From the NCBI GenBank assembly GCA_028598985.1, contig JAQRMV010000012.1:1-42832 (forward strand): a DNA stretch of 42,832 bases, given 5' to 3'. Under the pieces are notes generated by a model. It did not search any database. It saw only the letters and a program-made list of their open reading frames with translations, and was not told the origin of the DNA. Source of the DNA: Gammaproteobacteria bacterium (lineage in GTDB: Bacteria > Pseudomonadota > Gammaproteobacteria > Pseudomonadales > Balneatricaceae). Position numbers and translations under genes: made by a program. This document shows, piece after piece, positions 4,479-9,758 of the stretch (the first letter of the stretch is position 1; the number at the start of each line of letters is the position of its first letter).

Positions 4479-4511
4479 CGTTATTAATTGTCCCTAGTGA
4501 GGATTTTTTCC

Positions 4512-7415
4512 ATGCCTGAACCTACTACTGCCCCAACTCCAATCGCACAGCTACTCCAAAACAAGGCCTTTCTCAGCCGTCACCTTGGCCCTAGCGCTGC
4601 AGAAAATGAATCCATGTTATCTCATCTTCAAGTGGGCAGCATTGCCGAGCTATTAGATCAAACGGTTCCAGACAGCATCCGACTTAACCAGCCTTTAAAT
4701 TTGCCTGCGTCAAAGTCGGAAGTAGAGACCCTAGCTCAACTCAGGGAAATGGCGAACAAAAATACAGTCAATGTTTCATGCATCGGCATGGGTTACAGCA
4801 ATACCTTGGTGCCAAACGTTATTTTGCGTAACGTGATGGAAAACCCCGCTTGGTACACAGCCTATACACCCTACCAACCAGAGATTGCTCAAGGTCGCCT
4901 TGAAGCTCTACTCAACTACCAGCAAATGATAATGGACCTTACCGGCATGGAGCTGGCAAATGCGTCTCTACTAGACGAATCAACTGCTGCCGCCGAGGCT
5001 ATGGCTTTGTGTAAGCGTGCCAATAAGAAGAAGAGTGTTACTTTCTTCGTGGATGAAAATACGCACCCACAAAACCTTAGCGTAATACAGACCCGCGCGG
5101 AATATTTTGGATTTGATATTGTCACCGGCAACCCCGCTACAGATTTAGCGCAACACGATGTATTTGGCGTACTAGTGCAATATCCAGGCAGCAATGGCGT
5201 TATTTGTGACCTTAAAAACATCATTGAATCAGCCCATGAACAAAACGCTCTGGTAGCCGTTGGCGCTGACATCATGAGCTTAGTATTACTGCAATCGCCT
5301 GGTCAATTGGGAGCAGACGTGGTGTTTGGCTCTAGCCAGCGCTTTGGTGTTCCCCTTGGTTTTGGTGGCCCACATGCAGCCTTCTTTGCTAGCAAAGACA
5401 AATACAAACGCTCCATTCCCGGCCGTATTATTGGCGTCTCTATTGATACCAAAGGCAAACCAGCATTACGCATGGCAATGCAGACACGCGAACAGCATAT
5501 TCGCCGCGAGAAGGCTAACTCAAACATCTGTACTGCACAGGCACTTTTAGCCAACATGTCGTCCTTCTACGCCGTATACCATGGGCCTGAAGGCTTACGT
5601 ACTATTGCCAGCCGCATCCAGCGATTAACCGCTATTTTAGCCGCGCAGCTTGACGCTATAGGTTTCCCTGCAGACAACCAAACCTTCTTTGATACCCTTA
5701 CCTTAGCCACTCATGGTCAGCAAGACGCAATTTACCAGCGCGCCCTTAATGCTGGGTATAATTTACGCAAAATTGGTTTGGACCAACTAGGCATCAGCTT
5801 AGACGAAACTACACAAGTGACCCACATCCAAAGTCTTTTGAACATATTTGCTGGTGCCCAAGTCGATTTTGACCTAGCCGCCACAGACAATCTATGTAGC
5901 AGCATTAACATGGGTATGGCTAGCGAATTAATGCGTGCAGACGCCATTCTTGAACACCCCGTGTTTAATAGCTACCACAGCGAAACAGACATGCTGCGTT
6001 ACTTAAAGAAACTGGAAAACAAAGATTTTTCTTTAGTTCATGGCATGATCCCCTTAGGTTCGTGCACCATGAAACTTAATGCTACGGCGCAAATGGCAGC
6101 CGTCACTTGGCCTGAATTTGCTAACATGCATCCTTTTGCACCTGTAGAACAAACCCAGGGCTACCTCGAACTTATTCGTTCTTTAGAAGCACAATTAGTA
6201 GAGATTACCGGTTACGACCAAGTATCTATGCAACCCAATTCTGGGGCTCAAGGTGAATATGCAGGCCTTGTAGCTATCCGTAAATACCAACACAGTATAG
6301 GTGAAGGTCATCGTAACGTTTGTATCATACCTAGCTCTTCCCACGGCACTAATCCAGCCAGTGCCGCCATGGTAGATATGAAGGTGGTAGTGGTGCGCTG
6401 TGACGATCTAGGCAACGTTGATGTTGCCGATCTTAAAGCCAAGGCTGAGCAACATGCCGAACAATTATCTTGCTTAATGATCACCTACCCTTCTACCCAC
6501 GGCGTATACGAAGAAAGCATCGTAGATATTTGCGATATTATTCATCACAACGGTGGCCAAGTGTATATGGACGGTGCCAATATGAATGCCCAGGTAGGCA
6601 TCAGCAAACCTGGCATTATCGGGTCAGACGTTTCACATTTGAACTTGCACAAAACGTTTGCTATCCCACACGGTGGTGGTGGCCCGGGCATGGGTCCTAT
6701 CGGTGTAAAGTCCCACTTAGCGCCTTTCTTACCCAACCATCCTGTGATTTCAGTACATGGAGAGGATAATGGTAATGGAGCTGTTTCTGCAGCACCTTAC
6801 GGCAGCGGCTCCATCTTGCCTATTTCGTGGGCCTACATTAATTTGTTAGGTGCAGAAGGTTTAGAGCAGTCTACAGCCCAAGCTATTTTGAACGCCAACT
6901 ACATGGCTTCACGCCTAAGTGAGCATTTCCCAATTTTGTACCAAGGCCGCAATAACCGAGTAGCACACGAATGTATTATTGATATTCGTCCGCTTAAAGA
7001 AACCACGGGCATCAGCGAAGAAGACATTGCCAAACGTTTAATGGATTATGGTTTTCATGCGCCCACCATGTCATTCCCTGTGGCAGGTACGTTAATGATC
7101 GAGCCAACGGAATCTGAGCCGAAGCGAGAAATAGATCGCTTCTGTGACGCCATGGCTAACATTCGCGAAGAAATTGCTAAAATCGAAACAGGTGAATGGA
7201 GCCCTAAGCACAACCCACTTAAGATGGCACCTCATACCCAATTAGATCTAGCCAGCCATGGCTGGAACCGCGGCTATTCTCGCACCCTTGCAGCCTTCCC
7301 AACTGAAGCCACTTTAGATGCAAAATTTTGGCCTACTGTAAACCGTATAGACAACGTATATGGTGACCGCAATCTGATTTGCTCTTGCCCTCCAATGGAA
7401 GCGTACCAAGACTAA
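4512..7415 (+). CDS. gcvP: Glycine dehydrogenase (decarboxylating), P protein
   Basis: ~967 aa; [12 protein letters not shown]-lysine region [18 protein letters not shown] track starts at TTG 4488; ATG 4512 (MPEPTTAP) follows GTGAGGA and is preferred. Confidence 0.96.
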
Positions 7416-7604: not shown

Positions 7605-9758
7605 GTGCGAGCACTGAATCAATTCTTACCTTTATACTTAAGCTGTACGCTTTTGCTTATGGGCAACGGTTTGCTGTTTATCATCATCCCTATGAGCATG
7701 CGCTTAGATGGCCAGGACACCGACGCCATCGGTTTAGTCATGTCGCTATATTTTGTGGGCATGTTGTTGGGTTCTTTATACGGTAGGCATCTTATTAGCC
7801 GAGTGGGCCACATCCGCATTTTTGCCGCTTGTGCTTCCGTGGCTACCATGTGCGCATTGTTACATAGCATCTGGTCTGTACCTCTAGTTTGGGGTTTACT
7901 TCGGGTTCTGATTGGCTTTACCAACGCCACTTTTTTTATGACAATGGAAACCTGGTTGAGTGAGAGTTCCACCAGCGAAAACCGCGCTACAGTATTTGGC
8001 AGCTATCAATTTGTGACCTACTTTGGTTTGGCACTGGGCCAGCTCATGCTTAACTTTGCAGAGCCACAAGATCCTATTCTCTATATCTACGTAGCGATGC
8101 TGTTTTGTTTATGCATGATTCCAGTGTTGATGAGCCGTTCTGGTGGCCCACGCATCAATGAACCTGAACCTATGCCCTTAAACACCCTCTATAAAACATC
8201 GCCTCTAGGGGTAGTGGGCATTATGATTTCGGGTATTTGTTTAGGTGCCCTATATAACATGAGTAGTGTGTACGGTGCTGATGTAGGTATGACAAAAAGC
8301 CAAATTGCCACCTTTATGAGCGCCACCATGGTGGGCGGTTTCTTATTGCAGTTCCCCATTGGTAAATTAGCCGATATATTTGACCGTCGAACAGTACTAG
8401 TAATGACTTTATTGGTCGCCTGCTTGTCTGCCATGATATTGCCGATTATGGCCACCCGCGGCGAATTAGCCATTACCATCGCCTGCGCTGTTATTCTTAG
8501 TGGTGCTTTAGCTTGTGTATACCCCATTGCCTTAGCAGACGCATTTGACCGATTAAAGCCTACAGAAATGGTGGCAGCCAGTGGCAAACTTATCCTAGCC
8601 TATGCTACTGGTGGCGCTATTGGTCCCTATACCGCCTCTTTAGTAATGAAACACATGGGAGCAGACGCCCTGTTTGGTTATTTGATTGTGGCCAGCTTAA
8701 TTTTGATCGCTTTCGTAATGTACCGCATGACTATTCGTTCCGCTGTACCCGATGCATTACAAGAATCTTTCGTCGTACAAGGCATGACACCTATGGCCAC
8801 CGAGCTTGACCCTCGAACTGAGTACAATAGCCTAAACGAAACCGGCGTGGCCGCAGAAACGGTTCTATTACTGGCAGAAGAAAACCCCAAAGATGTGGTA
8901 GAAATTGCCGTTAGTGTTGCCCTTAACCAGCCAGAAGAAGCGGTGAATATTGCTCAAGCTGCAGCTTATAATTACCCAGATAACGCCGAAGCATTAGCCA
9001 TTGCCTTAGCCGATGAACTACCACACTTTAAATTAGACATCATTACCAGCGTTGCCGGTTCTGCACCACAATCAAGTGCCGCACTTGCGCGCTACATGTG
9101 CGATCTCATTAAACAACAAAAGCTAGAGCCACAAGCCAGTTTTAATGCCCTAAGCCAACTCACCCGCAAACTGCTGGACGAAGCCCCACAACAAGCCACA
9201 GAGATTGCTGCCATTGTTAGTCAGGAAATAGCCGACGATATGCCGGAGTTAGTGGCAGAAATTGCCGTATTAGCTGCAGAAGCTGCTCCAGATCAACGGG
9301 TAGAAGTTGCCGCTGCCGTGATCCAAGAAGTTCCCGAAGCCAGTGTAGAAGTAGCCGCAGGCGTGGCCGAAGCCATTGCTGCAAGCCCTGACGATGAGCT
9401 GCACTCCTTCTTAGCTGGAGAGGGTGATGAAGATTATGTGGGCGAAGGTGCAGAGCTCGCCATGGCGGTAGCACACGAGGCACCAGATCAAGCGTTACTA
9501 GACATTGCCACCGCCGTAGCCGAAGCCCTGCCAGATGATGCCGCGCAGGTGGCAGAATCTATCGCCCAAACAGACCCAGAACAGGCCTCTGACATTGTAG
9601 ACAGTATTAGTGAAGCAGTGCCCGACATGGCAGATGACGTCATGTACGCCGTGGCTAGTTCGCTGCCTGATCAGGCGGAGGAATTATTACAAGAAGTGCT
9701 GCTAGATGCAGAGTCCAATGACCTTTCTACTGACAACTCTCATTCTTCAGTGAGCTAA
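7605..9758 (+). CDS. MFS transporter (YcaD-like) with C-terminal ~300-residue repeat domain
   Basis: N-terminal ~390 aa is a hydrophobic MFS core (LVMSLYFVGMLLGSLYGRHLISRVGHIR; GGFLLQFPIGKLADIFDRRTVL); the tail is hydrophilic, acidic and repetitive. GTG start with AGGTGG upstream. Confidence 0.85.
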   Translation: MRALNQFLPLYLSCTLLLMGNGLLFIIIPMSMRLDGQDTDAIGLVMSLYFVGMLLGSLYGRHLISRVGHIRIFAACASVATMCALLHSIWSVPLVWGLLRVLIGFTNATFFMTMETWLSESSTSENRATVFGSYQFVTYFGLALGQLMLNFAEPQDPILYIYVAMLFCLCMIPVLMSRSGGPRINEPEPMPLNTLYKTSPLGVVGIMISGICLGALYNMSSVYGADVGMTKSQIATFMSATMVGGFLLQFPIGKLADIFDRRTVLVMTLLVACLSAMILPIMATRGELAITIACAVILSGALACVYPIALADAFDRLKPTEMVAASGKLILAYATGGAIGPYTASLVMKHMGADALFGYLIVASLILIAFVMYRMTIRSAVPDALQESFVVQGMTPMATELDPRTEYNSLNETGVAAETVLLLAEENPKDVVEIAVSVALNQPEEAVNIAQAAAYNYPDNAEALAIALADELPHFKLDIITSVAGSAPQSSAALARYMCDLIKQQKLEPQASFNALSQLTRKLLDEAPQQATEIAAIVSQEIADDMPELVAEIAVLAAEAAPDQRVEVAAAVIQEVPEASVEVAAGVAEAIAASPDDELHSFLAGEGDEDYVGEGAELAMAVAHEAPDQALLDIATAVAEALPDDAAQVAESIAQTDPEQASDIVDSISEAVPDMADDVMYAVASSLPDQAEELLQEVLLDAESNDLSTDNSHSSVS
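8847..9719 (+). repeat. Region encoding degenerate ~15-aa protein repeats, consensus about [DEQ]xAxxIAxAVAxxxP[DE]
   Basis: Aligned units: DVVEIAVSVALNQPE / EAVNIAQAAAYNYPD / NAEALAIALADELPH / FKLDIITSVAGSAPQ / LVAEIAVLAAEAAPD / QRVEVAAAVIQEVPE / DAAQVAESIAQTDPE / QASDIVDSISEAVPD / MADDVMYAVASSLPD. Confidence 0.85.

Follow-up and report, generated by a model that had tools for sequence, protein, structure and literature searches.

Bacterial MFS carriers are mostly stand-alone proteins with 12 TM helices. YcaD-like and DHA1 carriers (PRK03633, NorA, MdfA) have the 12-TM fold and sequence in common with the core of the protein described here; however, the PRK03633 model and the NorA and MdfA structures are without a repeat tail, whereas this protein has one. 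TPR-type and designed helical repeats, which are often protein-binding scaffolds, form all-helical alpha/alpha arrays like the one predicted for that tail, but the tail differs from them in its 15-residue single-helix unit. In yeast, the glucose sensors Snf3 and Rgt2 combine a 12-TM MFS-type core with a long regulatory cytoplasmic C-terminal tail; their tails are phosphorylated and differ in both sequence and length (PMC10876965). Both sensors are eukaryotic, unlike the present protein, and the likeness is one of architecture; homology with the tail is not claimed. A search of open-licence papers returned nothing on such a bacterial architecture or on 15-residue alpha-repeats, and no characterised relative of the tailed protein was found.

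The gene lies in a window of 42,832 nucleotides (contig JAQRMV010000012.1) from a gammaproteobacterium that we take to be marine. Its features are the following.

7605..9758, + strand: whole gene with its stop codon, starting with GTG and encoding 717 aa; MFS transporter with a predicted helical-repeat tail.
7605..8735, + strand: MFS core, residues 1-377, 12 predicted TM helices (Pfam MFS_1, AF2 helices, Foldseek).
8745..8840, + strand: linker, residues 381-412, with the conserved QExFV...LDPR motif (invariant columns; AF2 confidence low at 391-412).
8841..9383, + strand: helical array block 1, residues 413-593, 11 predicted helices (periodicity, AF2).
9066..9182, + strand: residues 488-526, two longer predicted helices inside block 1 (AF2).
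9384..9443, + strand: acidic linker between the helical blocks, residues 594-613 (pLDDT <50 at 596-608).
9444..9734, + strand: helical array block 2, residues 614-710, 6 predicted helices (AF2; 614-705 free of Lys and Arg).

The first-pass annotation had described this open reading frame as an MFS protein fused to a long tail, and the N-terminal assignment holds: residues 1-377 match Pfam MFS_1 well above its curated cutoff (E 1.3e-28; 100.4 bits against 33.4). The 12-TM fold is indicated by the AF2 helices and by 349 PDB matches of the core model at E up to 0.001 (Foldseek), the best solved structures being NorA (TM score 0.81 by target) and VMAT. The nearest NCBIfam model is the YcaD-like PRK03633 (E 9.3e-45), but the score of 153.3 bits falls below the cutoff of 361 for a YcaD equivalog. 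The MFS core retains conserved motifs, for example R100, D257, R261 and R262; thus, the core looks transport-competent and most likely transports, an activity predicted from sequence. With the N-terminus placed inside, the loops carry 14 Lys and Arg on the inner side versus 4 on the outer side, so that the C-terminus is predicted to be cytoplasmic, in agreement with the earlier argument from an even TM count.

The tail has a clear 15-residue period. In a BLOSUM autocorrelation over residues 400-717, the strongest signal is at lag 15 (z = 7.4), with a second one at lag 30 (z = 6.0), whereas the highest value over all lags in shuffled controls was 4.1 and none of 500 shuffles reached the observed one. 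Prolines recur at 15-residue spacing (428/443/458/473/488, 547/562/577 and 643/658/673/688), and 28 family members contain 249 proline pairs at this spacing, versus 29 expected from shuffling (maximum 41). The repeat unit reads P1-[DE]2-x-A4-[VL]5-[DE]6-[IV]7-A8-x-x-[VIL]11-A12-x-x-x, or in shorter form P-[DE]-x-A-x-[DE]-[IV]-A-x-x-[VI]-A-x-x-x. The 15-residue repeat proposed from inspection of 8847-9719 (residues 415-705) is therefore real, and the consensus given for it was close to the measured unit without being identical. Conservation within the genus and its sister peaks at unit positions 1, 4, 7, 8, 11, 12 and 15; this pattern, with its peak at Pro1 and the hydrophobic positions, fits a core that is packed and a surface that is freer to vary. 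There is no DNA-level tandem repeat, which indicates that the repeat units are old.

AF2 models of the full-length protein (24 sequences, pLDDT 81) and of the tail alone (27 sequences, pLDDT 80.8, pTM 0.72) agree in placing 11 helices up to residue 593, a low-confidence acidic linker, and 6 helices up to residue 710. The predicted helices are about 11-23 residues long, mostly 14, and many are split by a single residue; an extra short helix lies in the linker. The tail is thus periodic and is not predicted to be disordered, and the first-pass suggestion of a helical-repeat or alpha-solenoid tail is supported by sequence and prediction alike: tandem helical repeats with a regular sequence period emerge from the autocorrelation, the proline spacing and the models. 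The helices may stack into one continuous superhelix; the tail model has a pTM of 0.72, and the fold matches are weak. The count of 11-12 units had captured a real array but fell short of the 17 helices plus the short linker helix in the model. Two interruptions had also been proposed: the second (about 594-613) is a genuine acidic break, whereas the first (from 488) corresponds to the predicted helices 488-504 and 509-526, which are continuous with the array.

Searches with the tail model against the PDB and viral fold libraries gave nothing at E <0.001; the best, though weak, PDB fold matches were mainly to TPR and designed helical repeats (TM score by query about 0.2). A PDB sequence-profile match to designed repeat proteins (E 1.5e-4) was put down to common helical-repeat composition. 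Pfam and NCBIfam have no model for the tail, and no profile places it in a known MFS C-terminal domain. TPR, HEAT and other Pfam repeats all stayed below their gathering scores, the best tail match being MIF4G at 16 bits versus 30.8, and no family recurred consistently in a Pfam scan of the tails of 27 members.

The QExFV...LDPR segment directly follows TM12 and is largely invariant in tailed proteins (invariant columns Q386, E387, V390, L401, D402, P403 and R404); it is also present, partly altered, in tail-less paralogs. In one family genome, G029, the protein stops at ...VELDPRTPD with no recognisable tail downstream. Since this protein is nested in a tailed clade (tree support 95/84), the best reading is that it lost the tail and retained the linker. 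The linker may therefore serve a function of its own. The tail may have arisen once or more than once, as the fork joining the tail-less paralogs to one of two tailed clades is weak (84/28).

Other paralogs end differently. Four loci (L061, L062, L065, L067) encode a class of MFS paralogs of about 545 aa with a conserved helical tail of their own of about 130 aa, the comparison of which with the studied tail is suggestive at most (hhalign probability 14%, E 0.002, 40 columns). The paralogs L064 and L068 end in acidic low-complexity tails past the same DPR linker.

The tail profile matches 70 of the 117 family genomes; in two of them (G029 and G031) only the linker is matched, so that the MFS-plus-tail protein occurs in about 68 of 117, spread over 11 of the 16 genera. 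In the order-level sample the profile matches 17 of 392 genomes, the source genome included, with linker-only matches in G029 and G645 and a non-MFS match in G478; in the class-wide sample it matches the source genome and one other (2/369). A 45-residue unit profile finds the combination in two further gammaproteobacterial families as well. A scan of named genomes gave matches in close relatives only, the closest being Oceanospirillaceae MAGs, one of them labelled ASP10-02a. This name reportedly appears in the marine bacterioplankton literature, including a paper on an Antarctic phytoplankton bloom (PMC4620155).

Tail length past LDPR ranges from about 200 to >580 aa, and the longest tails consist of a repeated three-helix module with acidic linkers between copies. 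L073, L076, L086 and similar loci have tails of at least 550 aa with several near-identical three-helix modules separated by such linkers. At L018, the one long-tail locus to which TRF was applied, it detected no tandem repeat in the DNA.

Pairwise dS values are mostly high or saturated. The pair L008/L009 (dS about 0.6) gives dN/dS ratios of 0.028 for the MFS core and 0.063 for the tail; the corresponding ratios for L004/L005 (dS about 1.3) are 0.015 and 0.051. Change is thus faster in the tail than in the core, yet the tail is clearly under purifying selection, most strongly at the core positions of its unit.

Comparison of 21 loci showed neighbouring genes common to nearest relatives only and none conserved further, and gene neighbours were therefore dropped as a source of a substrate or partner. 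In the window, gcvP (4488-7415) sits immediately upstream of the MFS gene, as it does in L069; in L071 one small ORF comes between the two, and in L070 gcvP is not a neighbour. The genus and one sister have gcvP close by, but G011 does not, and the gene was not used as a clue.

Units resembling those of the tail also occur in free-standing proteins made of 15-residue helix-Pro repeats (L055:1246-2262 (+), L092:937-2151 (-), L093:901-1755 (+), L099:964-1857 (+), and likewise in L094, L095, L097 and L101). Most have an apparent signal peptide, and those scanned match no Pfam or NCBIfam family. L055, L092, L093 and L099, which begin like exported proteins and have no MFS core, resemble the tail in unit length and pattern, L092 aligning with it at hhalign E 2e-6, but several are richer in Ala. 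The likeness may be convergent; possibly, these proteins represent a wider uncatalogued repeat class.

The reading that we favour, at roughly even odds, is that the MFS carrier has an acidic alpha-solenoid as an arm for docking or regulation. An inner-membrane carrier of the YcaD/DHA1-like kind would be tied by the QExFV...LDPR linker to a cytoplasmic, strongly acidic alpha-solenoid of single-helix 15-residue units; this arm would bind to cytoplasmic proteins (one or several) or to the inner face of the carrier itself, and its binding would position or tune the carrier. We infer docking or regulation from the 15-residue period, the conserved core positions of the unit, the purifying selection on the tail, the confident helical models, the leaning of the weak fold matches towards TPR and designed repeats, retention in about 68 of the family's 117 genomes, the preserved MFS motifs and the predicted cytoplasmic C-terminus. 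Against it stand the lack of a conserved neighbour across 21 loci, fold matches that are not significant, and a tail that is dispensable in G029 and missing from many relatives. The tail looks like a folded arm for binding proteins, and an accessory module would accord with its variable length and with its absence from G029.

The same tail could instead make the protein a transceptor, with the MFS core as the sensor of a solute and the tail passing the signal on to proteins of the cytoplasm. The long cytoplasmic C-terminal tail that AF2 and loop charge predict on a 12-TM core recalls Snf3 and Rgt2 (PMC10876965), and it is conserved and variable in length; but the core looks transport-competent, no regulator gene lies nearby and one relative survives without the tail, which leaves this reading unlikely. 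Tails of several carriers might also pack together and cluster the transporter in the membrane, as each chain in related genera carries several repeated modules, which would provide multivalency; a net tail charge of -58 would, however, repel like tails, and such self-association is improbable. A passive tail, tolerated as an expanded repeat with no role of its own, would accord with its wide length variation, its absence from many relatives and its clean loss in G029, but is very unlikely given purifying selection, conserved core positions, old units with no DNA-level tandem repeat and retention across about 11 genera. An apolipoprotein-like belt on the inner membrane face, a membrane-bound form of the amphipathic-helix scaffold raised in the first-pass annotation, would suit amphipathic helices punctuated by Pro but is highly improbable, since a tail so acidic (-58, with zero Lys or Arg in 614-705) is expected to bind anionic membranes poorly and AF2 models the array alone with high confidence.

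The combination of an MFS core with such an arm in bacteria, built from an uncatalogued 15-residue unit, is uncommon but not categorically new, because yeast 12-TM proteins with long regulatory tails and helical-repeat arms are both known. As no Pfam or NCBIfam model describes the repeat and similar units occur in apparently exported proteins, the unit is a candidate for a new family of repeats. If the docking or regulatory arm is real, it would add a regulatory or scaffolding layer to a secondary transporter, for which the nested relative G029, armless but with the linker kept, offers a natural control. It is conceivable, though doubtful, that these proteins constitute a family of bacterial MFS transceptors, or of transporters that dock partners, with an uncatalogued cytoplasmic solenoid arm of 15-residue single-helix units whose length is adjustable in evolution.
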